64,000 nucleotides of DNA from a virus. The notes below the pieces were generated by a model that worked only from the letters and a program-made list of their open reading frames with translations, searched no databases and was not told where the DNA came from. Every line of letters starts with the position of its first letter. The stretch's first letter is position 1. Positions 15,163 through 62,014 of this stretch are shown here, in pieces. The stretch is taken from positions 1-64,000 of the IMG/VR virus record IMGVR_UViG_3300008108_000178; one strand, written 5' to 3'. Made by a program: the position numbers and the translations under genes.

Positions 15163-15295
15163 GAGAATTGAGAGATTAGAGGCGTCCCTCTACAATCTCA
15201 GATTAATGTACAGACCTCCCGAACGGGAGGGTCATGTAAGTATAACTGAATACTTAGATGAAGTAGAGAATAGAATAAAAAATTTAGAAAATTAA
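15134..15295 (+). CDS. Small coiled-coil protein, 53 aa
   Basis: The ATG frame MNQDLNSLIERIERLEASL begins with a heptad helix, and a second helix ends VENRIKNLEN. It is likely a short coiled coil. It ends five bases before the PAAR-like gene. Confidence 0.6.
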   Translation: MNQDLNSLIERIERLEASLYNLRLMYRPPEREGHVSITEYLDEVENRIKNLEN

Positions 15296-15300
15296 GAGTT

Positions 15301-15675
15301 ATGCCATTACTTGTCGGACCAGAGACCCCTGACACCACATCGGTGAATGGTCCTTGCACGTATCCAGCAAAACCAGTAACAGGAGCACAGGTATCCCCGA
15401 ATATATTCATTAATGGGGAACCTGTGAAGTTTTTACATAATGCTATAGCACCAGATAGTGTAACAGGTGTTCCGAATAATCCGTTAGTACCGTGTGTTAT
15501 TCCAGAAGCTGCGAGGGTAGTAGTAACAAGTGTGAATACTTCAGTATTTTTTAACAATCTACTACCTGCTGTGCAAGGGGACGCCACGGAACTCACATCC
15601 TTCCCTGGGACGAAGCGAGTATTCGTCGCACCATTTCAGCATCCGACTGTGATTATTGGTGGAGGGGTTGCGTGA
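15301..15675 (+). CDS. PAAR-like baseplate spike-tip candidate, 124 aa
   Basis: The protein is small, beta-rich and glycine/proline/valine-dominated: NIFINGEPVKFLHNAI in the first half, VVVTSVNTSVFFNN in the middle and FVAPFQHPTVIIGGGVA at the end. The rhythm of strand-Asn-Gly-x-Pro-strand resembles PAAR proteins that cap the tail spike (T4 gp5.4 role), and it sits just upstream of the baseplate genes. Histidines that could bind the tip metal are present (H46, H114), but I cannot align them reliably. An unrelated small structural protein is the alternative. Confidence 0.5.
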   Translation: MPLLVGPETPDTTSVNGPCTYPAKPVTGAQVSPNIFINGEPVKFLHNAIAPDSVTGVPNNPLVPCVIPEAARVVVTSVNTSVFFNNLLPAVQGDATELTSFPGTKRVFVAPFQHPTVIIGGGVA

Positions 15676-15696
15676 TTGGTCTGGGTGTGCTACAAT
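15668..15696 (+). promoter_or_regulatory. sigma70-type promoter candidate
   Basis: TTGCGT (15668-15673), a 17-bp spacer and TACAAT (15691-15696) lie upstream of the small basic-protein gene at 15722. Confidence 0.55.
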
Positions 15697-15721
15697 AGGT
15701 AGGTAAACAACTGAGGTTCTC

Positions 15722-15868
15722 ATGGCAAAGCGTCCTTCATTTACTAATAGCAATCTGATCGAGTCGAAGCCCAAGAAGTCCCGTCAGGGAAATGGGGCAC
15801 ATACGAAGTATGCTGCTACGAGTCGTAATGGTGCTCGTAAGCGTTATCGTGGTCAGGGTAAGGGCTGA
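15722..15868 (+). CDS. Small highly basic protein, 48 aa
   Basis: The ATG frame MAKRPSFTNSNLIESKPKK ends NGARKRYRGQGKG. The lysine/arginine richness suggests RNA or DNA binding. A TGAGG ribosome-binding sequence precedes the start, and the gene has its own promoter and terminator, suggesting stand-alone expression. Short proteins starting this way are known to me from cyanophages; the function is unknown. Confidence 0.7.
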   Translation: MAKRPSFTNSNLIESKPKKSRQGNGAHTKYAATSRNGARKRYRGQGKG

Positions 15869-15876
15869 TATATTTT

Positions 15877-15901
15877 GCGATCCTTAGGGGTCGCTTTTTT
15901 T
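15877..15901 (+). terminator. Intrinsic terminator
   Basis: GCGATCC (15877-15883) pairs with GGGTCGC (15888-15894), with one G-T pair, followed by a seven-T run. Confidence 0.8.
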
Positions 15902-15981
15902 ATGTGTAAATAGAATTGTATCTCTGAAGCAAGGGATAGCAACCCCTTTAAAAGTTCTGTTTAACCTTATGGAGAAAACAG

Positions 15982-16158
15982 ATGGCTAATGTTGATAAAA
16001 GTAAGGAGTTCGTCCAATCGGGCATGACTCTGATATCAGAACAGGCGAGTGATCGCCTGTTGAAAAAAGCCCAATACAAAGTACCAGATGACCGTTACAG
16101 TAGACCATGTGGCGGTTCTGGTGGGTTTGATGACTTTGTGGAGAGGTGGCATGAGTGA
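15982..16158 (+). CDS. Small hypothetical protein, 58 aa
   Basis: The ATG frame MANVDKSKEFVQSGMTLIS has a GGAGA site about eight bases upstream. It ends CGGSGGFDDFVERWHE. The stop is two bases before the late promoter of the gp25 gene. The function is unknown. Confidence 0.65.
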   Translation: MANVDKSKEFVQSGMTLISEQASDRLLKKAQYKVPDDRYSRPCGGSGGFDDFVERWHE

Positions 16159-48900: not shown

Positions 48901-51591
48901 GTAACAGAGCTTACTGTAACTAACTCTGGTGCTGGATATACTGCAGATTTTAATGTTTCTTCTGCTCCAGCAGAACTTGGTGGTGGATCTGGTTTAGTTT
49001 TAGCTGCAAAAGTCAGTACTGTAAACAGACAGTATGCTAATACCTCTCTCGATATTCAAAGAGTTACTGACCTCACAATTTCGGCAGATGAATTTGGTAC
49101 TATTGGTGTTGCTAGATTCAGAAAATCTCAGTTCCTAATCGGTCAATCAGGTAATGGTTCGGTTGTTTTAAAGACTGGAGCAGATAGTGGATTAGATGCT
49201 GACTTGTTAGATGGCGCTCAAGGTTCTTACTATCTTAATGCTTCTAACTTAAACGCTGGAACAGTATCAGTAGATAGACTTTCAGGTACTTACAATATTA
49301 GTATTTCTGGTCAGTCTGGTAATACAATCCGTGTTATCACAAATACTTCAAACCCAACTTCAAATCCATCTCCAAATGCATTCTCAACTGGTATTGTTGC
49401 AGATACAAGAAATAATGTTTCTAATGGATTATCTGATGGAGGAACCAAAAATTTAGTTCTTACATTAAGACCAGGAGGATCAGGATTTACTGTAGATGGT
49501 GGTGTTAAACAATTAGCATTTACTGATAATGATAATATGTGGTTACGTGGTTCTGGAACCAACGTAGATGCATTTGGTTCTTGGGCTAAAGTTTGGACTT
49601 CCTTAAATGATGGCCCTGGAACTGGACTAGATGCTGATAGATTAGACAATAGACAAGGAACATGGTATCAAAATGCACTTAATGTTAATTTTGGAACTTT
49701 AAGTGATAATAGATTACCATCATATCAATCTAGAAAAGATTTCCAAGATTCAATTAGAGTATTATCATTTACTGGTCAACCAAGATATAGAATTTTCATC
49801 CCAGATGAAATTCTAACATCAACTCCATTCCTTCCTGGTTTAACAGTTAACTTATATAATTCAAATGATCAAGGTACTGGTGTAATTTCTATTACTAATG
49901 TAGAAATTAATAATGATACAAATGATGTATTTAATAATTACACCATTATCACTGGTACTTTAACTACTGGTAATTTTGTAGGTGCTGTTACTATTGGTAC
50001 AGCAAGTAATAAAAAAGCATTTAGAGATTTTAGTATTGCTACTCTTGATGCAAATGCAGATGGTATACCAGACGGAACTTTTGTTGCTGCTGCTTTAGAA
50101 AGTGATGGAGGAACAGCTAATTTAAGACTTGGAAGAAAAGATGGACAAGCATCTTCTCCTGGATTATATTTTAACTCATCTCAATTAGCTGCATCTTACA
50201 ATGCTGCTATCGTTGCTACAGGTGGTAATGGATCAACTGGAAGCGGAACTCTTGATGTCAAAGTTTTAAATGCTGACGGATTTACTTTAAATGGAAATAC
50301 TATTTGGAATGCTGGTAATGTAACATTCAATAGTACTAATGTAGTATCAACTGCTGTTATTCGTGATGCTTCTGGTAATTTTGCTGCGGGAACAATCACA
50401 GCAAATCTAACTGGTGCTGCTTCTCAAAACGTACTTAAAGCTGGCGATACCATGACTGGTTCGCTAACTCTTACTGGTGCTGGAAGCAACTTCAGTGTAT
50501 CTGGAACTTCTGGATTTGTTGGTAATGTTACTATGAGTGGTAACTTAACAGTTGATACAAATACTTTATTTGTTGACTCCACTAATGATAGTGTTGGAAT
50601 TGGAACTATATCACAATCAAACCAATCAAAACTTCATGTACAAGGTAATCATGTCAGTGGTCATTCCATCATAAAAGTACAAAGGAATAATTCTGATGTA
50701 AGTTCAATTGGATTTTATTCACAGTCTTCTGTGAGAGATGCTTTAATATATTCCAACAATAGTGCTCAATTATTCCTAGAAACTGCTGGTGCTGGAGCTA
50801 GTATCCTTCTCGCTCCAAATGGATCTACACGTTTAACTCTTCTTGCTACAGGGGAAGTTGGAGTAAGTAGATCCCCAGCATCTGGATATGCTTTAGATGT
50901 ATCTGGTAAGGGTAGATTCTCTACATCTATGGAAATTCGTGATGCTTCTGATAATTCTGGAGCATCGATGTTATTCCTTGGTGCTAGTGGCTTTAGAAAT
51001 TTCAGAATTGGCAATCAACTCAATGCTAATGATGTATTTGAAATTACTCCATCTACTGCAAACGGAGGAACAACTTGGGGTACAACTCCAGCATTAGCAA
51101 TTCAAGGTGCGAATAATAGAGTTGCAATTAATACCTCAAACTTCTCTGGTACTGATACATCAGTAAGTCCAAATGTAACTAGAAATTATAATTTAAATAT
51201 CCAAGGTGATATCAATATCAATGGTAACGTATTCCAAAATAATGCAGCATTTGTAACTTCTAGATGGACACAAGCAACAAATCAACTAGATATCTATAGA
51301 TTATCTAAAGTTGGTATAAATAAAGCTAATCCAGATTATACATTACATGTTTCTGGAACTATAAATTTTGAAGGATCTTCTTTCACTTCACAAGCAAATA
51401 CAAGTGTTCTTTATGTAAATGGTGATAGACAATATATTGATACTTATGGGGTATTTAAAACAAATAGAAATACCGTAAATGAAGATATAACTATTCCTTC
51501 AAATACAAATGCTATGAGTGCTGGTCCTATCACTATAAATAGTGGAAGGATAATAACAATTGCATCAGGAGCCTCATGGTCTGTAGTTTAA
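42961..51591 (+). CDS. Giant beta-helical tail fibre protein, 2876 aa
   Basis: Layout by inspection: N-terminal glycine/tyrosine repeats (GSGYTLQPTVTL, GGGYETAPSVTI, residues about 65-135). A right-handed beta-helix/pectate-lyase-like start follows at about 295 (VYVSEQIGSDLNDGRSAVNP, then RTIKKAAQIAW and LPPDASVVGDNLR). Two tandem helical inserts at about 850-945 and 1000-1105 share CRRDI...RD...G, with ARNRDFIADEAYG in the second and NNIDFIADEVV in the first. The helix returns at about 1234-1327 (GGTGYKIINDGYVQLVSVFV). The C-terminal third has fibre repeats (DADLLDGAQGSYY, DADRLDNRQGTWY, VGINKANPDYTLHVSG). It ends in SGRIITIASGASWSVV, a closing motif shared by phage fibres. It is probably the main host-contacting fibre. 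Confidence 0.8.
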   Translation: MSFQFNSDREQIRAINPSLIGSNELTIRSGSGSNEKEILRAQLDANTTLPRVGINRTGNRIDRIQVTNGGSGYTLQPTVTLSAPPNGGIQALASAVISDGSVVAVLIDNIGGGYETAPSVTITGGNGNGATAVAYLDTVDFELDINGAIRTSTSIISDTARILNLDIDNFVTPDAQFRAPNLKTYLNSGGTPWSSNVIIQEGQYRYHNTNVYQALNTGTTGTTPPQHTDGIVLNGEVRFKHIGIRANDVNQPYFNEGGQSGVFPRSITPQFGDRSDKIATTEYVLNLATNDVGGRVYVSEQIGSDLNDGRSAVNPVRTIKKAAQIAWTTPGVKETIIVSGGDYVEDNPISLPPDASVVGDNLRLVIIRPNNPRKHIFKFGDKNYVTGVTYRDKIDSNGDPVATWDYAMVFDDKQRIEIDYTANGDFGTDFPVGHQIFGPEKFRSTYQTNTGLSQLTSGQRVKGVNTGAIGLLTDVTFNRITGADAYVNGSVDFSIISGSFNAGETFQYGGIGVVQFAQNTAYTLGQLVWTGDNVYTITVAGISGSSAPSHTSGAITNGSAEFTFLREAYEFISTDIRSIRAEGEVVFTDYDITTALPIVRIDFSKQGDPSVATGGFGDYGTPEDLGGIVFYTNALVGRQNTHNFKEGQEILISNLPTSSPDLSFLNGKQRIYKVLEDADGRTRRFVIPKKTTVTIDSNFDPGQFASVRSYSRSVTLSLLNSPNKFPVATPVARRYQDACLQIRNNIDFIADEVVRKINDQFKQEYFSVYGISGVEFKIYLGPSRFIHTYVSGGTVRFNNTNYNITNFVYDNVVTGEATITTSIPVASLTEDSIVKLSGIVVECDIDGVTTQKVYPSFNIPVSDSKCRRDIGHFLNAVCRDLEFGSNYNIINAAKKYISAGQIDLVDYEITQTIRAIEYARELAIYAMRKWRTGNGTPSDPVYVPQYSSLQRYTDPTVIDDISSPACANVASAINTLSYLFVDVLANGASGTSLDAAYLIARNRDFIADEAYGKTKALYPSLNLSNINERKCRRDINFIISGLIRDIILGGNAGIVTAVESYFSGSVLTGIPEAQRDETIYAFNQVRDLCILAMRNWKTGTNGTGSVYTPLHTPIPLFTDNTILIDPNVNKCATIVSNITTSFALLEDILDGTISPGATTKTFGTLFDTVNIVTYPDSVIYDADGVVYTPRSDYDDYPIIEASPYTQNASVISFLGGGGALIDGSKVKQPNCPFPGLELDGSATFPNQGKSMVAAAFTIVSFGGTGYKIINDGYVQLVSVFVIFCADGVLAESGGYASITNSATNFGIFALRARGYNDFAYSFDVGTITNVSSTPTGRTIFTVDGLGREPLEHYVVKIDGYENVNPDIEYFIDTVGAVTVGPPFSAQITIESGSGGGAEFKSISTGQAVSSSTLTGKTIRLHRPSIVNSSSHTWEFAGSGTNYNALPENGGVKIEAYEQVSQDYGRVYVSGTDELGDFKVGTFARIENRTGNITFTGTVTISEVEFLKLKGGDVVVTGFDASNTLGGANSTDSKLPTQKAVRDYITNNLGPYINKPYSTNAVPRALVELTDSGKISIDQIPPLRPFSVFTVPDQTSRLAIEGALAGDIAIQQDTSTSYILNNDNGSLFVSFNIDPTLQFTTNDVFTGSISGGKIQATEYRQGVVYQINLTDPGSGYTTTPVITITGGNPQAGAIQAAATCTIANGQVVTVKIVSFNGLIGGKGYTTPPTVTFSAPSGAGTQATGVALIESRLYGDIVNNIKMGEADTIQSSDIPAETIEINRVVNTSASNNNNWVSLSTNQIAASDITSGVIATSRLANNSDAANSFSFLRGDQAYAPVVQSIKGAENRYFAKLYSQASSGSSQLLFTTNSNTLVGHTVVNNLTGIQANTSINGVITSGGITTVSLNNPLTSTIAAGTIIEFERGASPLVFESSFTQGGFVDSIVIASGGSGFTNGQYFDVPLTGGSGTGLRSNIIVSNGIVTELTVTNSGAGYTADFNVSSAPAELGGGSGLVLAAKVSTVNRQYANTSLDIQRVTDLTISADEFGTIGVARFRKSQFLIGQSGNGSVVLKTGADSGLDADLLDGAQGSYYLNASNLNAGTVSVDRLSGTYNISISGQSGNTIRVITNTSNPTSNPSPNAFSTGIVADTRNNVSNGLSDGGTKNLVLTLRPGGSGFTVDGGVKQLAFTDNDNMWLRGSGTNVDAFGSWAKVWTSLNDGPGTGLDADRLDNRQGTWYQNALNVNFGTLSDNRLPSYQSRKDFQDSIRVLSFTGQPRYRIFIPDEILTSTPFLPGLTVNLYNSNDQGTGVISITNVEINNDTNDVFNNYTIITGTLTTGNFVGAVTIGTASNKKAFRDFSIATLDANADGIPDGTFVAAALESDGGTANLRLGRKDGQASSPGLYFNSSQLAASYNAAIVATGGNGSTGSGTLDVKVLNADGFTLNGNTIWNAGNVTFNSTNVVSTAVIRDASGNFAAGTITANLTGAASQNVLKAGDTMTGSLTLTGAGSNFSVSGTSGFVGNVTMSGNLTVDTNTLFVDSTNDSVGIGTISQSNQSKLHVQGNHVSGHSIIKVQRNNSDVSSIGFYSQSSVRDALIYSNNSAQLFLETAGAGASILLAPNGSTRLTLLATGEVGVSRSPASGYALDVSGKGRFSTSMEIRDASDNSGASMLFLGASGFRNFRIGNQLNANDVFEITPSTANGGTTWGTTPALAIQGANNRVAINTSNFSGTDTSVSPNVTRNYNLNIQGDININGNVFQNNAAFVTSRWTQATNQLDIYRLSKVGINKANPDYTLHVSGTINFEGSSFTSQANTSVLYVNGDRQYIDTYGVFKTNRNTVNEDITIPSNTNAMSAGPITINSGRIITIASGASWSVV

Positions 51592-51604: not shown

Positions 51605-52354
51605 ATGAGTAGCATATTTGTAAATACGATTCAAGCATCTACTGGGAATACCGTTACTGTTGCTTCTGGAGTAAGTCTTTCTTTAGGAGGAACGGTATTA
51701 AATAGTTCTTCTTTATTGCCAAATCCATCAGGTCAAGCTGGGAAAATTTTAAAATCAAATGGCTCTTCATTCATTTATGATGTTGCTGGAGTAAAACAAG
51801 TTTTAGTTTATACTTCAAATGGAAGTTATACGCCATCTAGTGGAACTAGACTAGTATACGTTAGATTAGTTGGAGCTGGTGGAGGTGGTTCTGGTTATGG
51901 AGAATCTGGAGGTTCTGGTGGTTACGCAGAAGGATTTGTAGACATGACTGGAGTAAATAATGTAAATATTACTATAGGCACTGGAGGAACTGGGTCATAT
52001 TATTCTGGTGGTGCTGGTGGAGGAACTACCACATCATTTGGTTCTTATATGAGTGCTACGGGAGGAAATGGTGCAAATACTTCTCACCAACATTGTGGTG
52101 GTCTTCCTGGAGTTGGATCTGGAGGACAATTAGCAATTTATGGTGGTGGTGGCACTGGTCATGGATACAATGGTAGAGGTGGAGGAAATTATTTCGGGGG
52201 AGCTGGTGCTGCTGGTCATCCACAAGGCGGAAACTTTAATCAAAATCATAACAGCCATCAAATCCCAGGAGTTGGTGGTATAAATGGCTGGGCAACTAGT
52301 TATCCTGGCAACACTGGGGGTAACGGTATGGTAGTAATCTGGGAGTACTCATAA
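51605..52354 (+). CDS. Glycine-rich adhesin-like tail protein, copy 1, 249 aa
   Basis: The N-terminal 45 residues (MSSIFVNTIQASTGNTVTVA...) are a fibre-attachment-type beta segment. The rest is glycine-rich with GAGGGGSGYGESGGSGGYAE, then SHQHCGGLPGVGSGG and FGGAGAAGHPQGG. The style recalls the glycine-rich loops of receptor-binding adhesins such as T2 gp38 (an analogy). It is the first of three tandem paralogues that share the HQHCGGLPGVG core but differ in flanking loops. They directly follow the giant fibre gene. Confidence 0.75.
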   Translation: MSSIFVNTIQASTGNTVTVASGVSLSLGGTVLNSSSLLPNPSGQAGKILKSNGSSFIYDVAGVKQVLVYTSNGSYTPSSGTRLVYVRLVGAGGGGSGYGESGGSGGYAEGFVDMTGVNNVNITIGTGGTGSYYSGGAGGGTTTSFGSYMSATGGNGANTSHQHCGGLPGVGSGGQLAIYGGGGTGHGYNGRGGGNYFGGAGAAGHPQGGNFNQNHNSHQIPGVGGINGWATSYPGNTGGNGMVVIWEYS

Positions 52355-53112
52355 TGTCAATATTAAAAGTAAACGAAATAAGACCACAATCTGGAACAAC
52401 AATTACTATTCCTTCTGGACACCAATTAAGTCTAGCAGGAACTATTGTAAATTCAAATTCATTTCCTCCAAGTTTTTCTGGGCAAGCAGGAAAATTTTTA
52501 CAATCTGATGGAACTAATTTAAACTGGCAAAGTTTAGGACCAGTTGCTATTAGAACATTTACCGCAAATGGAACTTGGACGAAACCAGCTGGAGTAACTA
52601 AAATTCTTGTTCGTGTACAAGGTGGTGGAGGATCTGCATCTGGCGTAGGAGAAGGTGGAGGAGGTGGAGGATTTTCCGAAAAATTTATTGATGTTACTTC
52701 GGTCTCAAGTGTAAATGTCACCGTTGGTCAAGGATCCACTGCTAGTACGTATTATGCAAATACTGCTGGAGCAGGAACGGCATCTTCGTTCGGTAGTTAT
52801 GTAACTGCTACTGGAGGAAATGGAGGAAATCAATCACATCAACATTGTGGTGGTCTTCCTGGCGTTGGGTCAGGAGGAGATTTAAATCTTTATGGTGGAG
52901 GTGGATCTGGGCACATGTATTGGTCTGGACCTCCAGGAGGAAATTCTTTTTATGGCGGTGCTGGAGCTTCTGGTCATCCACAAGGTGGAGATTATGCACA
53001 TAATCATTCATCTCATGCAGCATTTGGTTGTGGGGGAACTGCTGGTTATCACACAGAAAGAAGAGGTGCTAATGGAATGCCTGGAGTAGTAGTCGTATAC
53101 GAATTTGTATAA
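52354..53112 (+). CDS. Glycine-rich adhesin-like tail protein, copy 2, 252 aa
   Basis: The ATG overlaps the upstream stop. It is a paralogue of its two neighbours: same N-terminal block (SGTTITIPSGHQLSLAGTIV), GGGGSA-type glycine clusters, the shared HQHCGGLPGVGSGGDLN core and GASGHPQGG. Loops between them are specific (MYWSGPPGGNSF; HSSHAAFGCGG). A DNA-encoded set of adhesin variants is likely; receptor recognition is inferred. Confidence 0.75.
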   Translation: MSILKVNEIRPQSGTTITIPSGHQLSLAGTIVNSNSFPPSFSGQAGKFLQSDGTNLNWQSLGPVAIRTFTANGTWTKPAGVTKILVRVQGGGGSASGVGEGGGGGGFSEKFIDVTSVSSVNVTVGQGSTASTYYANTAGAGTASSFGSYVTATGGNGGNQSHQHCGGLPGVGSGGDLNLYGGGGSGHMYWSGPPGGNSFYGGAGASGHPQGGDYAHNHSSHAAFGCGGTAGYHTERRGANGMPGVVVVYEFV

Positions 53113-53114
53113 CC

Positions 53115-53876
53115 ATGTCAACACTAAACGTAAATAACATAGAATCTTCTAGTGGTACTACTATTTTAATACCATCTGGAAATAGTTTATCCTTAGCTGG
53201 AACTGTAGTAAATTCATCTACTCTTCCACCAAATCCATCAGGACAAACAAATCAAGCTTTATATACAAATGGTTCCGCTGTTTCTTTTAATGTTACAGGA
53301 CCAAGAAGTATCCAAACATTTACTAGCAGTGGAACTTGGACAAAGCCAAGTGGCATTAGTAAAATATGGGTAATGTTATGTGGGGGTGGAGGTGCAGCAT
53401 CTGCTCACTCAGAATCTGGAGGTGCTGGAGGATATTGTGAGAAACTAATCGATGTTAGTTCAGTATCATCTGTTCAAGTTACGATTGGAGATGGCTCTAC
53501 TTCATGGACATATTATTCTGGTGCTGCAGGAGGAGGTGGAACTAGTTCTTTTGGTACTTATATGAGTGCGACAGGAGGTAGAGGCGCAAATACTTCTCAC
53601 CAACATTGCGGTGGTCTTCCTGGAGTAGGTACTGGCGGAGACTTGAATGTTTATGGTGGTGGTGGCACGGGTCATATGTCATGGGCATGTATGAAAGGTG
53701 GTTCATCTTATTTTGGAGGAGCTGGAGTAAGTGGCCATCCCCAAGGAGGTAATTTTGCTCATAGTTATTGGGATAGATCAGCTCCTGGTTGTGGAGGAAC
53801 TGCTGGGTATGATAATAACTCAACATTAGGAGCTTATGGAAGAGGTGGATTGTGTATTATCTACGAATATGCGTAA
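53115..53876 (+). CDS. Glycine-rich adhesin-like tail protein, copy 3, 253 aa
   Basis: It starts two bases after the previous stop. It shares with its paralogues SGTTILIPSGNSLSLAGTVV, HQHCGGLPGVGTGGDLN and YFGGAGVSGHPQGG. It carries its own loops (MSWACMKGGSS; YWDRSAPGCGGTAGYDNN). The stop is at a late-promoter-like AATAAATA. The tryptophans in the loops are possible substrates for the halogenase encoded nearby. Confidence 0.75.
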   Translation: MSTLNVNNIESSSGTTILIPSGNSLSLAGTVVNSSTLPPNPSGQTNQALYTNGSAVSFNVTGPRSIQTFTSSGTWTKPSGISKIWVMLCGGGGAASAHSESGGAGGYCEKLIDVSSVSSVQVTIGDGSTSWTYYSGAAGGGGTSSFGTYMSATGGRGANTSHQHCGGLPGVGTGGDLNVYGGGGTGHMSWACMKGGSSYFGGAGVSGHPQGGNFAHSYWDRSAPGCGGTAGYDNNSTLGAYGRGGLCIIYEYA

Positions 53877-53883
53877 ATAAATA
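53876..53883 (+). promoter_or_regulatory. Candidate T4-type late promoter
   Basis: AATAAATA lies 28 bp upstream of the gene at 53911, with a GGAG-type ribosome-binding site further down. It may drive the assembly gene and the oxygenase run. Confidence 0.5.
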
Positions 53884-53910
53884 GTTTATATAAACAGGAG
53901 ATTTACAATA

Positions 53911-54372
53911 ATGAAAAGGGTTTTACTTGATTTTAGAGGAGTTATTAACGATGTTGTTGAGGTTGGATCTGAATTTGAAATTTATGATGGTCCAGACACA
54001 ACAATTAAATGGGTTTTATGTCCACATGATGGAGTAGACGGCACTTGGCATTGTCAAGATGGTGAATGGATTTCTCCAGATAGAAAAAAAGATGTAAATT
54101 ATGATATGCAAAGAAAAATTGCATACGGTACATTAGAAGAACAATTGGGAATGCTTTATCATGATATAAAATCTGGCAATTTACAAGATGGCGAATGGAT
54201 TAGAATGCAAGATAATGTAAAATCTGCTATTATCTCACAAAGACAATATGAATCAGATCCAGCTAATATTGAAGGAAAGGTGGATCTAAAGTATCATACA
54301 GAAACAGATCCTGCATGGAATCATTTACCAGCAGAAGAAATTATTCCCCCATCATTTGATCACTTAAAATAA
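53911..54372 (+). CDS. Tail-fibre-assembly-like protein, 153 aa
   Basis: A CAGGAG site precedes the ATG. The pattern MQRKIAYGTLEEQLGMLYHD followed by GEWIRMQDNVKSAI resembles the QR.xYxSxxxQLDxxxH...VKxxxP motif of small phage tail proteins near fibre genes. A role as chaperone or fibre-associated protein is inferred. It contains tryptophan-rich DGTWHCQDGEWIS at about residues 49-61. It precedes the halogenase gene. Confidence 0.6.
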   Translation: MKRVLLDFRGVINDVVEVGSEFEIYDGPDTTIKWVLCPHDGVDGTWHCQDGEWISPDRKKDVNYDMQRKIAYGTLEEQLGMLYHDIKSGNLQDGEWIRMQDNVKSAIISQRQYESDPANIEGKVDLKYHTETDPAWNHLPAEEIIPPSFDHLK

Positions 54373-54388
54373 TAATTAAATTATAATC

Positions 54389-55975
54389 ATGAAAATAAAT
54401 TCAATATGCATCGTCGGAGGTGGCTCCAGTGGATGGATGGCAGCGGCTGCAATTGCCGTTAATTTACCAAATATTAAGTTAACTGTTATAGAACCAACTG
54501 ATATTCCCATCGTTGGAGTTGGAGAATCAACATTAGGTCACATCAATCGTTATTTGCATTGTATTGGATTGGGAGGTAAAGATAAAGAATGGATGCCACA
54601 ATGTGAAGCTTCTTATAAAGTTTCTATTCAATTTTCCGATTTTAAACAAAAAGGACATGTATTTCAGTATCCATTTGGAAAGCATGATTATACAAATAAC
54701 AAAACTCCAAATGATTGGGCATATCTAAAAAATTTAATTCCAGAATTTAATGACACTTATTCAGAATTTTATAATCCAATTACGTATCTAGCAAATACAA
54801 ATAAGATGGTTTCTGATAACTCTATTATTAGAAACTTTAATTTTACTATGGATACTGCGTATCATTTTAATGCTACTCAGTTTGGTCAATATTTGAAAAA
54901 TAATATTTGTATCCCAAAAGGAGTTACTGTAATAAGAGATAGTATCGAAGATGTAGTTATAAATGAAGATGGAGAGATTGAATACCTAGTAGCAAAATTA
55001 ACTCCAAGAATGAAATTAAAATATGATTTGTATATTGATTGCACTGGATTCAAATCATTGATCCTAGAAAAGAAAATGGGATCAAAATTTATAAGTTTTA
55101 ATGATGTACTATTAAATGATACTGCATTAGCAACTAGAATCCCATATATTGATATAGAAAAAGAACTAACTAATGTTACAGACTGCTGTGCATTAAAAAA
55201 TGGATGGGTTTGGAATATTCCATTGTGGAGTAGAATTGGAACTGGATATTGTTATTCTAGTAAATTTACTACTAAAGAAAATGCAGAAAAAGAATTTAGA
55301 GAACATCTAGCAAAAATTGATAAGAAAAGAGCTGAAGAAGCAGAGTTATTTACAATTAATATTAGACATGGTAAACGTGAAAAAGCTTGGGTAAAAAATT
55401 GTTTAGGTATTGGTCTTTCTTACGGATTTTTAGAGCCACTAGAATCTACTGGATTATTAACAACACATGAAAATGTTTTGCGATTAGTTGATACACTACA
55501 AAAAAGAGAAGGTTATGTAACAAAATTAGATGTTGATGGTTATAACCATGCAGTAGATTATGATTTAGAATCATTTAAAGATTTTATTGTTATGCACTAT
55601 GTGCTTTCACAAAGAGATGATAGTGATTATTGGAAATATATCAAATATGAAATGGATGTAGTTCCGCCAGAAATGATTACTGATAGACTAGTAACAAGTC
55701 CAAGACTTTATAGAGAATTTTTACATGATAGTTATAGAAGTCATAATTTTAGTGACTTAGATGGCATTCTTTATATTGCTCATGGAATGGACTATCTTCC
55801 TGTAGGAAAAACTCAAACTGAATATAGATTTTCGGAAAATGGTTATTTTAATAAAGATCAATTGATAAAAGATGTAAAAATTCCACATGATAGGTATAAA
55901 AAACAAGTACTACGTCATCTGGATAAATGCCCGTCTACATACAAATTTTTGAAGGACAACATTTACAATGCTTAA
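54389..55975 (+). CDS. Flavin-dependent tryptophan halogenase, 528 aa
   Basis: The enzyme uses FADH2 (supplied by a flavin reductase), oxygen and chloride or bromide to halogenate an indole ring. The FAD motif GGGSSG is at residues 10-15; a second GVGEST at 43-48. Catalytic lysine K77 lies in EASYKVSIQF, the halogenase signature WVWNIP is at 273-278, and GFLEPLESTGL contains the glutamate E352 expected for catalysis and the chloride-binding ST-G turn. Length is typical for the PrnA/RebH class. Substrate is unknown: free tryptophan, a peptide or another indole. I see no flavin reductase gene in the window, so a host reductase would be needed. It starts the enzyme run of seven overlapping or adjacent genes. 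Confidence 0.9.
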   Translation: MKINSICIVGGGSSGWMAAAAIAVNLPNIKLTVIEPTDIPIVGVGESTLGHINRYLHCIGLGGKDKEWMPQCEASYKVSIQFSDFKQKGHVFQYPFGKHDYTNNKTPNDWAYLKNLIPEFNDTYSEFYNPITYLANTNKMVSDNSIIRNFNFTMDTAYHFNATQFGQYLKNNICIPKGVTVIRDSIEDVVINEDGEIEYLVAKLTPRMKLKYDLYIDCTGFKSLILEKKMGSKFISFNDVLLNDTALATRIPYIDIEKELTNVTDCCALKNGWVWNIPLWSRIGTGYCYSSKFTTKENAEKEFREHLAKIDKKRAEEAELFTINIRHGKREKAWVKNCLGIGLSYGFLEPLESTGLLTTHENVLRLVDTLQKREGYVTKLDVDGYNHAVDYDLESFKDFIVMHYVLSQRDDSDYWKYIKYEMDVVPPEMITDRLVTSPRLYREFLHDSYRSHNFSDLDGILYIAHGMDYLPVGKTQTEYRFSENGYFNKDQLIKDVKIPHDRYKKQVLRHLDKCPSTYKFLKDNIYNA

Positions 55976-56774
55976 TAATTTTTTTAAAAAGAAATCTCCT
56001 ACAATAAGATTTTTTTCTCTTACCCCAGGAGTAAATACTTTATATCCAATTATAAAATCTAATAAATTAAATCGTGAATGGGTAACAGAAGAAAAAATTG
56101 ATTATGAAAATAGAAAATCTAAATGTCCATTTGGATTTTTATCAACACAAGGAATTGATCGTGTTAGTAGTATTGGAAAATGCCCAGCAATTAGTGGAAT
56201 AATTGGAGCTGGATTTACAATAAGAGCACCAGCAGATTTTGTTGTGATGACAAATGGAGATAAAACAACGCTCGATTTCAAATACAAAAATATTGTTCCT
56301 CATATTGAATATGTAACAAAGCACGAAAAAGAAGTATCAAGTTGGTTATTAGATTCTTCTAAAGATAATACTCTAAATCAGGTTTTAAAAGTAAATACTC
56401 CATGGAGAATTACTTGCGATTCTGATGATATTATTTTTCTAGTAACAAAAGTTCCATTCGTCAAAGAAGATAGATTCACAGCTGTTACTGGAATTTTAGA
56501 TCCAAAAACAGCATATGAAATAAATATACAACTTTTTTGGCACGTACTAAATGGAGAAGAAGTTATAAAAGCTGGCACACCCTTATGTAATTACATTCCA
56601 ATTTCTAGATCTTTATTGCAAAATATTTCTTTTGTTTCTGAAGATGCTGAAGAAAGAGATTATCTTGTCGAAAGAGAAATGCTATTTTCTTATGAACATG
56701 TATTTTCAAATTCAAACACTTTGAAAGATAAAGTATCTAGAGTTGTAAAAATATTAAAAAAATATTATGGTTGA
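55968..56774 (+). CDS. DUF6065-like protein in halogenase operon, 268 aa
   Basis: It overlaps the halogenase stop by 8 nt and the next start by 8 nt. The protein is beta-rich with KCPFGFLSTQGID early, VNTPWRITCDSDDIIFLV in the middle, and FWHVLNGEEVIKAGTPLCNY with PISRS later, the order I associate with DUF6065. It shows no clear HxD metal motif. It possibly helps bind substrate or product for the halogenase or oxygenases, inferred only from the operon. Confidence 0.5.
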   Translation: MLNNFFKKKSPTIRFFSLTPGVNTLYPIIKSNKLNREWVTEEKIDYENRKSKCPFGFLSTQGIDRVSSIGKCPAISGIIGAGFTIRAPADFVVMTNGDKTTLDFKYKNIVPHIEYVTKHEKEVSSWLLDSSKDNTLNQVLKVNTPWRITCDSDDIIFLVTKVPFVKEDRFTAVTGILDPKTAYEINIQLFWHVLNGEEVIKAGTPLCNYIPISRSLLQNISFVSEDAEERDYLVEREMLFSYEHVFSNSNTLKDKVSRVVKILKKYYG

Positions 56775-57360
56775 ATTATTTCCTATAAAAATTTACAAAT
56801 CTTCAATTGTTCCATCTAGTAGTGACGACAAGATTTGTGAAGATATCTTAAATGATCTTTTTTCAAAATCAACAGAAAATTATTGGGCAGGAGAAAGTGG
56901 ATTTTCTACTGGAGAGTTTTCACTTTCTCTACATCAATATAAAGAATTTAATTGGTTATTTGATTCTCTAGTTTCTCATTTAGGTGCATACTGGGATGAA
57001 TTATCTTATGGAAATATACCTGTTTATTTGAGAGATAGTTGGGCAAATTTGCATTACTCTAATCACGAAACAGAAGAGCATTCACATTCTGATGGATTAC
57101 TAGGAAATTCAATAATATCTGGAGTTTTTTATTTTAGAAAACCAGAAAATGAATCTAACATAATTTTTTGCAACCCATTAGATTATATACTAAGATTACA
57201 ACCATATAAAGATTTAAAAGGTATAAAAACCATTGGAGAAGAAATAAAAACAAATCAATATGATTTTTTACTTTTCCCTTCTTGGTTGCGTCATAGAGTA
57301 CCAGCATTCAAATCAAATTCAAAAAGAATAGCTATATCGTTTAACTATGCAAGAGTATGA
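56767..57360 (+). CDS. Putative 2OG-Fe(II) oxygenase, TIGR02466-like, 197 aa
   Basis: It opens VELFPIKIYKSSI, a family-typical LFPxxIY start. The metal motif EEHSHSDG gives H105/H107 (with D109), followed by GVFYFRKPE, then FPSWLRHRVPAF with the distal histidine H176 and R187 for 2-oxoglutarate. Overlaps on both sides show tight coupling with its neighbours. The substrate is unknown. Confidence 0.7.
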   Translation: MVELFPIKIYKSSIVPSSSDDKICEDILNDLFSKSTENYWAGESGFSTGEFSLSLHQYKEFNWLFDSLVSHLGAYWDELSYGNIPVYLRDSWANLHYSNHETEEHSHSDGLLGNSIISGVFYFRKPENESNIIFCNPLDYILRLQPYKDLKGIKTIGEEIKTNQYDFLLFPSWLRHRVPAFKSNSKRIAISFNYARV

Positions 57361-58126
57361 TATAAATGATTTTAGAAAAATGTCTATCTCTTCAGTTTAC
57401 TTTAATGATGAGATTAAAATAAAATCAATTAAAAATTTAGAATATGAATACATTAAATTAGATAAAAATGTAGGATATTGGATTACCGATTGTCCATTTG
57501 TAGATGGATCTTTTATAAAATATATGGAATTTGTTAAATCAAATCCTATATGGAGAATGAATAACGAATACGATTTGGAAGATACTAATCCATTTGCAAC
57601 AATTCATCTACCAGATTTTTCAACTAGACCATTGTTTAATTTATTATATCAATTTTACTCTTCTACTATTGGTTATAATAAAGATGTTTCGGTAAATGAT
57701 TGGGGAAATATTTATTTTAAAGAGCACTCACGTCCTATAAAAAGATGGAGGCTTCCTCATATGGATTATGTTTCTGGTTTGGTAGCTAATCTTTGGTTTA
57801 CTAATCATGATATAAATTCTACAGGAACTAATTTATATTTTTATAAAGGAGTGACTCATGGAATTAATTATGATTTCCAAGTAAATGAAAGTCATCCATT
57901 ATATAAAGAATGGCACAATATGAAATCTAAAGATCGTGATATTAAATGGAATAATTTTTCTATCGATGAAGCTAACTATTGGGGATTTGAATTGCTTGGC
58001 AAAGCTCCAACTAAATATAGTTGTATGACAATGTACTATCCAAATATTTCTCATGCTCCATTTATTGAAGATGACATAAAATTTAGATGGTCACATACTT
58101 TTAGTTGTTTTTCTAATTTTTTATGA
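57347..58126 (+). CDS. Putative 2OG-Fe(II) oxygenase, DUF6445-like, 259 aa
   Basis: Metal-ligand candidates are H138 and D140 in LPHMDYVSGLVANLWF and H236 in YPNISHAPF, with R247 in FRWSHTFSC as the 2-oxoglutarate anchor. The segment GTNLYFYKG between them fits the double-stranded beta-helix fold. It overlaps the previous gene by 14 nt. I recall similar proteins close to bacterial tryptophan halogenases, which supports a joint function. Confidence 0.65.
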   Translation: MQEYDINDFRKMSISSVYFNDEIKIKSIKNLEYEYIKLDKNVGYWITDCPFVDGSFIKYMEFVKSNPIWRMNNEYDLEDTNPFATIHLPDFSTRPLFNLLYQFYSSTIGYNKDVSVNDWGNIYFKEHSRPIKRWRLPHMDYVSGLVANLWFTNHDINSTGTNLYFYKGVTHGINYDFQVNESHPLYKEWHNMKSKDRDIKWNNFSIDEANYWGFELLGKAPTKYSCMTMYYPNISHAPFIEDDIKFRWSHTFSCFSNFL

Positions 58127-58713
58127 TTAATGTTGAGCATATTTTTCCTGTTCCTATTTGGTCAATTGATTTAGATCTTAATTTAAACGAGATAGAAACT
58201 TATATAAGATCTATTAAAAATGTATCTAATGGGCGAGCTATTTCAAATGTAAATGGATGGCAATCAGATTCATTTGATACAAAACAAGAAACAATTCCAG
58301 AGATAAAAAGGTTATTTTATCTCATACAAAAATATTTAAAATTATGTTATGCAGAATATGGTAGTGCAGAAAACCCAGAAATTGACAATTATTGGTTTAA
58401 TATAAATTATCCAGGTTCTTCAAATTTAGATCATCTACATTCTAGATGTTTTTTATCTGGTTGCTTTTATGTAAATACATCTCTTAACTGTGGGGATATT
58501 GTTTTTAAAAGATCTTCATTAGAAGATTATATAATTTCTTCTAATGTTGGATTATCTAATACTAAACTATCGGCATCTCATTGGAAATATTCCACGAAGC
58601 CAAATCAAGTATTAATATTTCCTTCATGGATTTCTCATTTTGTCGAAGAAAATAAATCATCAGAAGATAGAATTTCAATTGCTTTTAATACGAGGTCTTT
58701 AAAATGGGAGTAA
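58123..58713 (+). CDS. Putative 2OG-Fe(II) oxygenase, TIGR02466-like, 196 aa
   Basis: It is a paralogue of the protein at 56767: the start VEHIFPVPIWSID, HLHSRCFLSGCFYV (H104, H106), FPSWISHFVEEN (H172) and RISIAFNTRS (R183). It is ATGA-coupled to the previous gene and overlaps the next by 10 nt. The duplicated enzyme suggests two different target positions or substrates. Confidence 0.7.
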   Translation: MINVEHIFPVPIWSIDLDLNLNEIETYIRSIKNVSNGRAISNVNGWQSDSFDTKQETIPEIKRLFYLIQKYLKLCYAEYGSAENPEIDNYWFNINYPGSSNLDHLHSRCFLSGCFYVNTSLNCGDIVFKRSSLEDYIISSNVGLSNTKLSASHWKYSTKPNQVLIFPSWISHFVEENKSSEDRISIAFNTRSLKWE

Positions 58714-59318
58714 AAATTATTGATAATTTATTACCAAAAAAATTAGAAAACGATATTATGGATCTTACCATGGGAACATCATTTCCATGGTTTTATATAA
58801 ATGATATAACTAGAAATGTGAGCGGTGAAGGAATTTATGCTCAGCCAGGATTTCATAACACTCCATTTATACATTATGCTCCATCAAATCCATTTTTTGA
58901 TTATTTCAAATCTTTATCTTTTATTATAGAAGATCAAATAAATTGGAAACATGATTTAAATTTGTTTAGATTAAGATGCGGATTAAATTATCCGTTAGTA
59001 CATCAAAATAAAAAATTTAGTTGGGAATGGAATTATCCTCATATTGATCATAATCCAGATTTTGTTACTGGAAAAACTTTTACTTGTTTATACTATGTTA
59101 ATGATTCTGACGGAGATACATTTGTTTTCAATGAAGTAGAGGAATCAAAAAATTACACCGTGATGGAAAGGATATCTCCTAAAAAAGGAAGAATTGCAAT
59201 ATTTGATGGAGAGCATTATCACGCAAGTTCTTCTCCTAGACTATCAAATTCCAGAATTGTTTTAGCTTTTAATTATCATGATAAAAAATATTTTACGAGA
59301 TCTGAAGAAACAAATTAA
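58704..59318 (+). CDS. Putative 2OG-Fe(II) oxygenase, 204 aa
   Basis: Classic layout: NYPHIDHNPDF (H113, D115), FTCLYYVNDSDGDTFVF, GRIAIFDGEHYHASSS (H173) and SNSRIVLAFNYH (R184). The start at 58704 overlaps the previous gene by 10 nt and gives MGVKIIDNLLP, the common N-terminus of prolyl-hydroxylase-like enzymes. The substrate is unknown. Confidence 0.75.
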   Translation: MGVKIIDNLLPKKLENDIMDLTMGTSFPWFYINDITRNVSGEGIYAQPGFHNTPFIHYAPSNPFFDYFKSLSFIIEDQINWKHDLNLFRLRCGLNYPLVHQNKKFSWEWNYPHIDHNPDFVTGKTFTCLYYVNDSDGDTFVFNEVEESKNYTVMERISPKKGRIAIFDGEHYHASSSPRLSNSRIVLAFNYHDKKYFTRSEETN

Positions 59319-59973
59319 ATTTGATGATCAATGTGTTGTTATAAAAGATTTTATTTCAAATCCAAATATATTAATTTCGTGGTATGACGTTGAAGAAGCT
59401 TTAAATTATAATTTATTTAAATTTGAAATTATACAAAATGGCAATAAATTACCTATACCAGAAATGAATTATTTTTGGTATTCAAAAATAATTCAAGACA
59501 AAAAATACATTTATGATTTCATCATCAACGGTAATGCTTTTGTAATATTAGAATATAGAAATAAAGAAATCAACAATTTACTACAGCAAATAGAAAATTT
59601 TTTTGATGTCTTATGTGATGCTCATATTTATGGTGGGATATCAGAATATTCAAAATCATTTACACCGCATGTTGATATTCCTCCAAATTTTATTTTACAA
59701 ATAGAAGGAACTACGACATGGAAAATATATAAAAATTGTGCATCTGATTTATTTTCACAAGAAGATATAAATTCTTCAGTAGACAAAAATATTTTAGAAA
59801 TAGATAAAGAAGTGATATTATCACCTGGAGATATTCTTTACATACCATCAAGAAGATTTCATGAGGCTATACCAACGGGGAAAAGACTTTCTATAAGTAT
59901 TCCATGTAGACCAAAAAAATACGATAGAAGTATGTTTAATTTAGATAGAAATTACTATGAAATTACAAGTTAA
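59278..59973 (+). CDS. Cupin/JmjC-like oxygenase (cupin_8 type), 231 aa
   Basis: Metal motif FTPHVDIPPNF (H131, D133), GTTTWKIY and SPGDILYIPSRRFHEAIP (H195) correspond to cupin_8/JmjC-like hydroxylases, several of which modify proteins or tRNA. The start at 59278 overlaps its neighbour by 41 nt, the longest overlap in the run; no later ATG is suitable. The product ends NLDRNYYEITS. Confidence 0.7.
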   Translation: MIKNILRDLKKQIKFDDQCVVIKDFISNPNILISWYDVEEALNYNLFKFEIIQNGNKLPIPEMNYFWYSKIIQDKKYIYDFIINGNAFVILEYRNKEINNLLQQIENFFDVLCDAHIYGGISEYSKSFTPHVDIPPNFILQIEGTTTWKIYKNCASDLFSQEDINSSVDKNILEIDKEVILSPGDILYIPSRRFHEAIPTGKRLSISIPCRPKKYDRSMFNLDRNYYEITS

Positions 59974-60628
59974 TGATTGGGATGAGCCAATGCTAGAATC
60001 AGGCAAAGATTTTCCTCCTATCTTAAAATTGGTAAAAAATGCAATACCAAAAGAAGTATTAACAATCATGGATATCGAATTTACAATGATGCGTGATTGT
60101 ATGAAAACTTTAAACAGTACTAATGGATTTAATGATCCATCAGTTCACAATTCTTTTTCTTGGTATTCTCCAATATGTTTTGAAACTTTAAGTGTTTATT
60201 TACAGCCATTGGTAGAAAAAGAAGTTGGAGAAAAATTGTTTCCTACGTATTCATATGCTAGAATTTATATGAATAATAGTGTGTTGACTAAGCATACTGA
60301 TAGAAAAAGTTCTCAATTATCAGCAAGTTGTTGTATAAGAAAGGACGCAGATTGGCCACTTTGTTTTAAAACAAAAGAAGGTATTGAAGAATTTGATATG
60401 GATCCAGGAGATATAGTAATTTCTTCAGGAACAAAAATTCCTCATTGGAGAGAACCATATACAGGTAATGAACATATGCAAGCATTTTTACAATATGTTT
60501 ATGTCGATGGAAAATATTCTCATTTAAAATATGACACTAGACCATGTTTAGCATCTGATTATGAATTAACTGCTCCTTATATAAAAGAAGAAGTTAATCG
60601 AAGATATAATCATCCATACATTTCATAA
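59957..60628 (+). CDS. 2OG-Fe(II) oxygenase, prolyl-hydroxylase-like, 223 aa
   Basis: Metal ligands H113 and D115 (LTKHTDRKSS) and H163 (KIPHWREPY) are embedded in SYARIYMNNSVL and DMDPGDIVISSGTKIPHW. This arrangement is common in cyanophage oxygenases of the prolyl-4-hydroxylase group. The C-terminal region has FLQYVYVDG and DTRPC. It ends the enzyme run; the next late promoter overlaps its stop. Confidence 0.75.
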   Translation: MKLQVNDWDEPMLESGKDFPPILKLVKNAIPKEVLTIMDIEFTMMRDCMKTLNSTNGFNDPSVHNSFSWYSPICFETLSVYLQPLVEKEVGEKLFPTYSYARIYMNNSVLTKHTDRKSSQLSASCCIRKDADWPLCFKTKEGIEEFDMDPGDIVISSGTKIPHWREPYTGNEHMQAFLQYVYVDGKYSHLKYDTRPCLASDYELTAPYIKEEVNRRYNHPYIS

Positions 60629-61183: not shown

Positions 61184-62014
61184 ATGGCACAGCCATCTAC
61201 AAGACAGGGACTAATTGATTATTGCAAAAGGCAATTAGGTGCTCCTGTGCTACAGATCAATATTGATGACGCTCAAGTTGGAGATGTCATTGATGATGCT
61301 ATTCAGTATTATCAGGAATGGCATTATGATGGTGTGGAAAGAATGTATCTCAAACATCAGGTAACAGCAGATGATGTTGCTAGATTTACTGCTTCTAATG
61401 AATTAAATAGCACAGCAGATCCTGATGCATCTACATGGGAGAATAGAAAAAACTTTATTGAAGTGCCAGATCATGTAATCGGTATTTCAAAAGTATTTGG
61501 TGTGTCATCTAATTGGGTTCGCAATGATTTGTTTGGTTTAAGCAACCAGTATTTCTTGATGGATGTATTTTCATTTTCATCTGGATTTGCTTTTGGTAAT
61601 TTTGATATGACAAATTATTATATGATTCGTCAGTATTTTGAAACTCTTGATATGGTTGTCAATACTGGTGCATTAGTTGAGTATAGATTTAACAAAAGAC
61701 AGGATCGTTTGTTTATTGATATTGATGTAAACAGATTGACAGAAGGAAATTATATTTTAATTGAATGTTATAGAGCATTGAATCCAGATGAATTTAATCA
61801 AATCTATAATGATAGTTTTGTGAAGAAGTATGCTACTGCTCTCATGAAGAGGCAGTGGGGACAGAACTTAATTAAGTATAATGCTGTCCAACTTCCTGGT
61901 GGTATCACACTAAATGGAAGACAGATTTATGAAGATGCGTTGGCGGAACTTGCTCAATTAGAAGCTGATATGCCAACCAAGTATACACTCCCACCAATGG
62001 ATATGATCGGATAA
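61184..62014 (+). CDS. 13: Neck protein gp13
   Basis: gp13 closes the head-tail neck with gp14 after DNA packaging. Length (276 aa) fits. The N-terminus QPSTRQGLIDYCKRQLGAP, then VLQINIDDAQVGDVIDDAIQ and the later YRFNKRQDRLFIDIDVN are family features. The gp14 gene begins two bases after its stop. Confidence 0.9.
   Translation: MAQPSTRQGLIDYCKRQLGAPVLQINIDDAQVGDVIDDAIQYYQEWHYDGVERMYLKHQVTADDVARFTASNELNSTADPDASTWENRKNFIEVPDHVIGISKVFGVSSNWVRNDLFGLSNQYFLMDVFSFSSGFAFGNFDMTNYYMIRQYFETLDMVVNTGALVEYRFNKRQDRLFIDIDVNRLTEGNYILIECYRALNPDEFNQIYNDSFVKKYATALMKRQWGQNLIKYNAVQLPGGITLNGRQIYEDALAELAQLEADMPTKYTLPPMDMIG

Follow-up and report, generated by a model that had tools for sequence, protein, structure and literature searches.

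What substrate a cyanophage might modify with a flavin-dependent halogenase and six oxygenases encoded behind its tail fibre genes is the question raised by this locus. In the literature searched, the functions offered for viral halogenases and for the many 2OG oxygenases of cyanophages are conjectures only, namely antibiotic protection, DNA repair and host metabolism. The window analysed here, a 64,000-nt stretch of a 64.8-kb IMG/VR record, carries T4-like cyanophage tail and neck genes. From 54389 to 60628 it encodes the halogenase, a dUTPase-fold protein and six Fe(II)/2OG-type oxygenases, all on the + strand and overlapping or abutting; here the ORF list agrees with the initial annotation. 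A 2876-aa ORF lies directly 5′ (42961-51591, +) and aligns with tail fibre and structural proteins of related cyanophages. Three paralogous Gly-rich tail-tip proteins follow it on the + strand. The first two (51605-52354, 249 aa; 52354-53112, 252 aa) are included in the family alignments and score 336 and 379 with the family's own HMM, and the third, the candidate substrate (53115-53876, 253 aa), matches PF21722 Gly_rich_2 (E = 9e-8) and phrog_863 (tail; E = 2e-61). The enzymes had been placed directly behind these paralogues; the paralogues were recovered, but a previously unmentioned gene for a 153-aa phrog_1787 protein (53911-54372, +; E = 9e-24) intervenes. This gene is present in nearly all Gly-rich loci, and its position makes a role as fibre chaperone possible. 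Downstream of the enzymes lies neck gp13/head-tail adaptor Ad2 (61184-62014, +), with 79% identity to Sf-FR1 Ad2. Since the same gene order is seen again in dozens of contigs, the order of the cassette is not due to chance. The frequency of a TAAATA late-promoter motif did not exceed chance expectation.

Judged from its sequence, the 528-aa product of 54389-55975 (+) is an intact flavin-dependent halogenase of the VirX1 clade. It matches PF04820 (E = 1.7e-103; 347 bits against a cutoff of 21) and phrog_2928 (E = 4e-157), and its nearest solved structure is VirX1 (6QGM, E = 6e-144). The FAD motif, K77, WVWNIP and E352 noticed initially were all upheld by the Pfam match and by family conservation: G10, G12 and G15 of the GxGxxG motif are conserved, W273-V-W-N-I-P278 is present, and among the halogenases of Gly-rich loci the catalytic K77 is kept in 101/101 and E352 in 100/101. 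The sequence of VirX1 (PDB 6QGM, Syn10/syn9) is identical to that of syn9 gp42, which holds the same slot in the same kind of cassette as the window halogenase, and the two enzymes share ∼45% identity and the same K/E/WxWxIP residues. VirX1 halogenates aromatics with FADH2, O2 and halide, an activity demonstrated for VirX1 only; its open active site takes bulky aromatics, including phenols, and many small aromatics are iodinated in vitro (PMC8407142). Unlike the window enzyme, it has been examined in isolation, as a biocatalyst for small molecules (PMC8407142), and neither a natural substrate nor an adhesin link for VirX1 was found in the literature searched, including PMC8407142. Stand-alone VirX1-type halogenase genes exist in S-B64, S-MbCM6, L022, L037 and L033. 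Tryptophan halogenases of the PrnA/RebH type have the Pfam Trp_halogenase fold and active site in common with the window halogenase, but serve antibiotic pathways, in which free tryptophan is the substrate. Beside the window halogenase there are no PrnA-type companion pathway genes; its neighbours are oxygenase, dUTPase-fold, fibre and neck genes.

Profile searches assigned the six oxygenases to TIGR02466 (two genes), a DUF6445-like family (phrog_1644), 2OG-FeII_Oxy_3, JmjC_2 and phrog_2954. Each had been described as carrying an HxD or HxH pair and a distal histidine, and this proved correct, the metal triads being invariant within each of the six families; four have an HxD..H triad and both TIGR02466 proteins an HxH..H variant. 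Matches above curated cutoffs were obtained for the two TIGR02466 genes (56767-57360, +, 79.7 bits against a cutoff of 62.5, H105xH107..H176 and R187 invariant; 58123-58713, +, 87.2 bits, H104xH106..H172 and R183 invariant), the 2OG-FeII_Oxy_3 gene (58704-59318, +; phrog_274; PF13640, 31.0 bits against a cutoff of 27; H113xD115..H173..R184 invariant) and the JmjC_2 cupin gene (59278-59973, +; PF08007, E = 5e-19; H131xD133..H195 invariant). The DUF6445-like gene (57347-58126, +; phrog_1644, E = 2e-15; H138xD140..H236 invariant) and the sixth oxygenase gene (59957-60628, +; phrog_2954, E = 8e-53; H113xD115..H163 invariant) were called from PHROGs and motif, and for the former also from DUF6445 in its relatives, 6/33 of which match PF20043. 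The closest solved relatives of the JmjC_2 protein are the histidyl hydroxylases MINA (2XDV, E = 8e-7) and NO66; sequence searches gave no convincing solved relative of the DUF6445-like protein. The oxygenase complement differs widely among cassette loci. Three of the PHROG names are misnomers: 'minor coat protein' for phrog_1644, 'DNA endonuclease V' for phrog_274 and 'ferrochelatase' for phrog_2954.

The gene between the halogenase and the first oxygenase (55968-56774, +; 268 aa, phrog_7084) had been called DUF6065-like. The gene is present and the likeness is weak: PF19541 gave no match to the window protein and was found in 4/44 of its relatives (best E 0.004). Its AlphaFold model (pLDDT 91) has a predicted dUTPase fold (Foldseek, E = 1.5e-4; TM 0.29-0.38 of query), and P27, C72, P73, D90, H119, K141 and W146 are conserved in the family. 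Considered as a seventh oxygenase, it was rejected, having no conserved HxD..H metal triad and a dUTPase-like fold; it is possibly an adaptor.

The Gly-rich proteins look like receptor-binding fibre tips of the Pam3 kind. In the model of the third paralogue (AF2, pLDDT 87) a TNF-like base carries a Gly-rich loop domain, and the top Foldseek match is the Pam3 fibre 7YPX_A (E = 2.1e-8, TM 0.53), which together with the PF21722 match agrees with their earlier description as adhesin-like. Searches by sequence gave no convincing solved relatives of the Gly-rich or phrog_1787 proteins. Among 178 Gly-rich proteins, E100, Y134, N159, H164 and H187 are 93-99% conserved, and they are also kept in 17/17 halogenase-only loci. 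Tyr134, His164 and His187 are near-invariant and sit mid-loop in the Gly-rich domain, probably in a distal position on the tip. Histidine content is 5.5%, about tenfold higher than the 0.5% of Gly-rich tips without a halogenase at the locus. The initial annotation had named tryptophan as the residue to check for halogen. Tryptophan is disfavoured as a target because it is scarce in the Gly-rich domain (0.8%); this content is the same as in Gly-rich tips at halogenase-free loci, and the sole conserved tryptophan, W75, is positioned before the Gly-rich loops. The candidates are instead the near-invariant tyrosine and histidines, though the conserved Tyr/His/Glu residues could serve structure, metal binding or receptor contact. 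A relation between the JmjC gene and a histidine motif in the fifth loop, strong in raw counts (35/42 vs 2/13, Fisher p = 1.5e-5), was dropped after phylogenetic contrasts gave r of 0.19-0.26 and p of about 0.3. S-RIM44 has the full cassette yet a degraded fifth-loop motif.

The association of the cassette with this adhesin family was investigated by counting loci of ocean viruses dereplicated at 90%, with Gly-rich genes scored within 6 kb of the halogenase. Every Gly-rich locus had an adjoining halogenase (66/66), and 63/77 halogenase loci had Gly-rich genes within that distance, or 35/46 among halogenase-seeded hits only. As a control independent of the cassette, loci were anchored on the neck gene gp13; three had both, 38 had neither and none had one alone (n = 41). 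All 20 isolate records with a Gly-rich protein are cassette phages, and Syn1, from the same genus and with the same site, has neither Gly-rich genes nor cassette. The linkage is found at more than one genome site, between giant fibre and gp13 (as in the window) and between fibre and helicase, and with inverted orientation, affecting the whole enzyme block in L086 and the oxygenases in L238. Where a halogenase locus lacks this Gly-rich family, it mostly adjoins other fibre-tip genes all the same, either tandem paralogues that look C1q-like and have tail-fibre PHROG matches, or other Gly_rich_2 proteins; in S-SRM01 the neighbour is a 'gp37-gp38 adhesin tip complex'. The co-occurrence search that had been named beforehand thus ties the cassette to fibre-tip genes, and placement independent of fibre genes was seen neither in the locus counts nor in the gp13 control. 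Halogenases and oxygenases had been described as occurring singly in cyanophages; the same whole cassette is present in the isolates syn9/Syn10, S-RIM44, S-CREM1, P-TIM40 and Sf-CH3. In syn9 the Gly-rich protein is gp38. The Gly-rich, phrog_1787 and DUF6065-like genes were absent from 80 cellular halogenase neighbourhoods. No paper joining the cassette with adhesins, and none on clusters of halogenase with TonB receptor, SapC and cupin genes, was found in the literature searched.

This linkage suggests that the phage completes its receptor-binding tips by chemical modification, with the Gly-rich protein as candidate substrate; probably the cassette is a module dedicated to maturing this part of the tail. 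The Gly-rich proteins and the enzymes encoded behind them would be synthesized together late in infection. The halogenase, of VirX1 type, would use reduced flavin and seawater halide on an electron-rich aromatic side chain of the tip loops, most likely at Tyr134 and less likely at His164 or His187; the halogen is perhaps iodine or bromine because of the preference of VirX1. Other side chains of the loops would be hydroxylated by the 2OG oxygenases, and the surface with which mature fibres touch the host would then bear both kinds of modified residue. The benefit may lie in receptor affinity, stability or host-range tuning. Against this reading stand the wide variation of the oxygenase complement, the stand-alone VirX1-type halogenases and the non-detection of Gly-rich proteins in one virion proteome, that of S-SZBM1. 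The broader proposal is that many marine T4-like phages use several enzymes to halogenate and hydroxylate their tips at fixed Tyr/His positions, and that VirX1 has the adhesin as its natural substrate; it is put forward tentatively, at a little under an even chance. The linkage offers one concrete candidate substrate for a common marine phage gene class, including the solved VirX1. If the proposal is true, virus-made non-canonical amino acids take part in host recognition, and the enzymes are tools for protein-level halogenation and hydroxylation with a known client protein.

Adhesin linkage would be equally expected if the enzymes modified the receptor that the adhesin binds. The cassette would then act on a host receptor or other surface component, for example so that progeny do not stick to the lysing cell or a second phage is excluded, and would travel with the adhesin since both match the same receptor. 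The virion proteome of S-SZBM1, in which the halogenase and oxygenases are unreported, fits cell-acting enzymes (PMC9146016). The same proteome (PMC9146016) includes the neighbouring fibre proteins _51 to _54 but not the Gly-rich proteins _48 and _49, for each of which 8-9 tryptic peptides are predicted. The Gly-rich domain contains few Lys or Arg residues. Nevertheless, core order and adhesin residues are constant across Synechococcus and Prochlorococcus hosts despite expected receptor differences, and cytoplasmic enzymes would have to reach the receptor before its export; we regard a host target as unlikely.

In a reading as auxiliary metabolism, free tryptophan or some other small molecule would be the substrate of the halogenase, in a PrnA-like manner that protects against antibiotics, and the oxygenases would work on metabolites or repair DNA. 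This is suggested by the family names, by published annotations proposing antibiotic protection or DNA repair, and by the in vitro range of VirX1 (PMC8407142). It is a rather improbable reading given the near-absolute linkage to one adhesin family; the cassette and its near neighbourhood contain no pyrrolnitrin-type companion or repair genes, and the linked enzymes adjoin fibre genes rather than uvsX/uvsY. Neither these two genes nor uvsW was found beside cassette oxygenases, whose sites are tail fibre/neck or fibre/helicase. We give just as little weight to an insertion hot spot behind the tail fibres, where adhesin and enzymes would be swapped as a host-range block with no biochemical contact and the conserved adhesin residues would be a structural or metal site. 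The same site does hold different tip genes and other oxygenases in other phages, and metal binding by the conserved histidines is possible. However, with a hot spot one would often expect to meet tip genes and enzymes apart, and no such case was seen for this adhesin family (66/66; 0 discordant of 41), while the linkage persists across different sites and inverted orders.

Maturation of a viral tip by dedicated enzymes can be compared with known systems. RiPP clusters with a halogenase and oxygenases, such as that of MibH, place a substrate gene and then tailoring enzymes in one operon. The cassette likewise has its presumed substrate gene followed by tailoring enzymes, but that substrate is a folded structural protein, and neither leader peptide nor short precursor is present. 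The ORF list contains no RiPP precursor ORF, the genes before the enzymes encoding 153 aa and 249-253 aa, and the overlapping or abutting cassette genes leave no space for an additional small ORF between them. Mimivirus L230, a collagen lysyl hydroxylase, is a viral 2OG oxygenase for which a Gly-rich structural protein of the same virus, its collagen, has been proposed as client. It resembles the cassette as proposed in pairing such an enzyme with such a client, and differs in being the single enzyme of a eukaryotic virus, with collagen lysine chemistry and without a halogenase or receptor-tip linkage. PMC5802723 and PMC9546862 deal with this hydroxylase. The fibre gp24 of cyanophage Pam3 with its chaperone gp25, and the adhesin gp38 of Salmonella phage S16, resemble the window proteins in the predicted tip of TNF-like base and Gly-rich loops, and in both Pam3 and the window a small gene lies behind the fibre gene. 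The Pam3 tip has hypervariable loop ends and no described modifying enzymes (PMC9608196), whereas in the Gly-rich family of the window the mid-loop Tyr/His/Glu residues are near-invariant.

The window comes from a 64.8-kb IMG/VR virus record and covers most of it. The tail-fibre gene at 42961-51591 (2876 aa) precedes three Gly-rich paralogous genes (51605-53876), a gene for a 153-aa protein (53911-54372) and a halogenase gene with seven smaller genes in overlapping frames that end at 60628; an 86-aa gene and then the neck genes gp13-gp15 lie downstream. The halogenase matches PF04820, and its nearest solved structure is that of VirX1, a cyanophage flavin-dependent halogenase. Six of the seven small genes encode Fe(II)/2OG-type oxygenases (two TIGR02466, one DUF6445-like, one 2OG-FeII_Oxy_3, one JmjC_2 and one phrog_2954 protein), each with an HxD or HxH pair and a distal His that are invariant across 46-92 relatives; the nearest solved relatives of the JmjC_2 protein are the histidyl hydroxylases MINA and NO66. 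The product of 55968-56774 is weakly DUF6065-like, with a dUTPase fold. Profile matches, metal-binding triads and gene layout thus bear out the halogenase/oxygenase cassette that the initial annotation had placed behind the Gly-rich genes. The invariant triad is also present in proteins that databases, including cyanophage RefSeq records, name 'minor coat protein' (57347-58126, phrog_1644), 'DNA endonuclease V' (58704-59318, phrog_274) and 'ferrochelatase' (59957-60628, phrog_2954), names that are probably wrong for these proteins. Elsewhere, dense short ORFs (<260 aa) at 1-16000 resemble a cyanophage early region; by eye, it ends with a PAAR-like spike ORF (15301-15675), after which gp25/gp6-like genes follow.

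The halogenase, the Gly-rich protein and the 153-aa protein each served as seed for a scan of IMG/VR; the three scans together yielded ∼230 loci, which were annotated by HMMs made from the cassette genes and merged into 97 clusters where halogenase or Gly-rich proteins were 90% identical. The commonest order was Gly-rich (1-4 copies), 153-aa protein, halogenase (1-3), DUF6065-like, then oxygenases. Where 2.5 kb or more of downstream sequence was available, 66/66 Gly-rich clusters carried a halogenase; where 4 kb or more of upstream sequence was available, 63/77 halogenase clusters had Gly-rich genes within 6 kb (35/46 when restricted to halogenase-seeded hits). Among deposited phages, all 20 records with the Gly-rich protein belong to cassette phages (Sf-CH3, Sf-FP1, Sf-FR1, S-RIM44, S-CREM1, syn9, Syn10, P-TIM40, S-WAM1, S-SZBM1 and P-RSM6).

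Search bias was controlled by anchoring on the neck gene gp13, chosen independently of the cassette, in 41 loci that extend 7 kb or more upstream of it: both the Gly-rich family and the halogenase occurred in 3, neither in 38 and only one in none (Fisher p=9e-5; the three positive loci are related to each other). Both are missing from Syn1, which shares its genus and the site with S-RIM44. The module occupies one site between giant fibre and gp13 (the window, Sf-CH3, S-RIM44, Sf-FR1) and another between fibres and helicase (P-TIM40, S-WAM1, S-SZBM1). Convergent to the Gly-rich genes are the enzyme block in locus L086 and the oxygenases in L238, so that adjacency is not explained by shared transcription. 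Gly-rich, 153-aa and DUF6065-like genes were absent from 80 cellular halogenase neighbourhoods. The co-occurrence proposed initially therefore holds, with no discordant locus in the gp13 control, and we are confident that linkage of the cassette to tip adhesins is established as far as genomics allows. The component families are already known; their arrangement and probable purpose appear to be new.

The exceptions point the same way. Most of the 14 halogenase clusters without the window-type Gly-rich family adjoin fibre-tip genes of another kind: Gly-rich proteins outside that family (Sf-CH11, L065, L089, L059), tandem paralogues that carry a C1q-like 'FTAPVxGYY' signature and have relatives in tail-fibre PHROGs (L021, L085, L088, L093), or LamG-like-looking genes (L092), the C1q and LamG labels being based on sequence appearance rather than Pfam hits. 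The halogenase of S-SRM01, which is more distant, is flanked by a tail-fibre gene and by one with the annotation 'gp37-gp38 adhesin tip complex', and five halogenase genes stand alone (S-B64, S-MbCM6, L022, L033, L037). C1q-like-looking tip genes with conserved His/aromatic motifs adjoin halogenase/oxygenase clusters, often convergently (L085:15745-18647, L088:14461-17354 and L020:2703-4489, each with three tandem paralogues, and L093:12280-13206), and may represent another type of tip on which the same chemistry is used.

For the Gly-rich protein, an AlphaFold2 model (mean pLDDT 87) had its best match in the cyanophage Pam3 fibre gp24 (7YPX_A, E=2.1e-8, TM 0.53), whose tip combines a TNF-like domain with Gly-rich loops and whose hypervariable distal end is thought to bind the receptor (PMC9608196). 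In contrast to that hypervariable end, 178 cassette-linked Gly-rich proteins have near-invariant residues between the strands of the model (E100 99%, Y134 99%, N159 93%, H164 98%, H187 97%, H208 84%), and other loop positions, for example 188-194, are freely variable; by analogy with Pam3, the conserved mid-loop residues would lie distally on the tip. In eight loci with a halogenase and at most one recognised oxygenase, E100, Y134, N159, H164 and H187 were retained in 17/17 proteins and the His-rich fifth loop was not. His made up 5.5% of the cassette-linked domain versus 0.5% in a set of 14 Gly-rich tips whose loci lack a halogenase (p=5e-10), a comparison of different protein families and so supportive only, as is that for Trp, which the initial annotation had named as halogen target and which was not enriched (0.8% versus 1.0%). 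Because of the near-invariance, the His enrichment and the lack of Trp enrichment, Tyr134, then His164/His187, are the favoured candidate targets over Trp. Tandem paralogues within one locus differ strongly in the fifth loop (L186, L019, L104, third Gly-rich gene), as though the phage maintained several alternative tips.

That the Gly-rich tip adhesin is the substrate of the cassette is the best explanation and, in our judgement, somewhat probable; the modified residues are predicted ones. Mimivirus L230 provides a precedent for hydroxylation of a Gly-rich viral protein by an enzyme that the virus itself encodes. Possibly the cassette instead modifies the receptor, which the linkage by itself fits equally well. 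Against the adhesin as substrate, fibre proteins _51 to _54 were detected in the S-SZBM1 virion proteome, and Gly-rich _48/_49, with 8-9 possible tryptic peptides each, and the cassette enzymes were not (PMC9146016). Also against it, a test for covariation of the JmjC oxygenase with a loop His motif failed after accounting for phylogeny. The VirX1 sequence (6QGM) is identical to syn9 gp42, which is located in a cassette behind Gly-rich genes; the enzyme forms a trimer, and its large, open active site takes bulky phenols and heterocycles, with iodide as the preferred halide (PMC8407142). Published suggestions for these phage genes are protection from antibiotics, a role in DNA repair or a role in host metabolism (PMC2984593, PMC3037559, PMC9964418, PMC9146016, PMC10452541); no proposal linking the enzymes to adhesins was found in the open-access literature, and an earlier one may exist elsewhere.

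Other genes recur in these neighbourhoods. Several phages with the module at the fibre/helicase site have, immediately before the adhesin genes, a gene for a Cys- and Gly-rich protein (GCYGCWGGG...HASCSGCSAGGGG), as in L006:4378-5328 (syn9 gp36), L122 and L158. A phrog_1458 protein of 409 to 563 aa with clustered Cys motifs, perhaps a metalloenzyme, accompanies the halogenase (L025:8760-9989, L092:15105-16796) and, in L025 and related contigs, is found where most oxygenases are absent; Pfam and PDB comparison gave no convincing family for it. Four Campylobacter phage records also match the halogenase. In L355:1-10001, three tandem Gly-rich paralogues of another family (365-376 aa) precede gp13 with TIGR02466-like oxygenases and no halogenase, and oxygenase-only tip cassettes may therefore exist.
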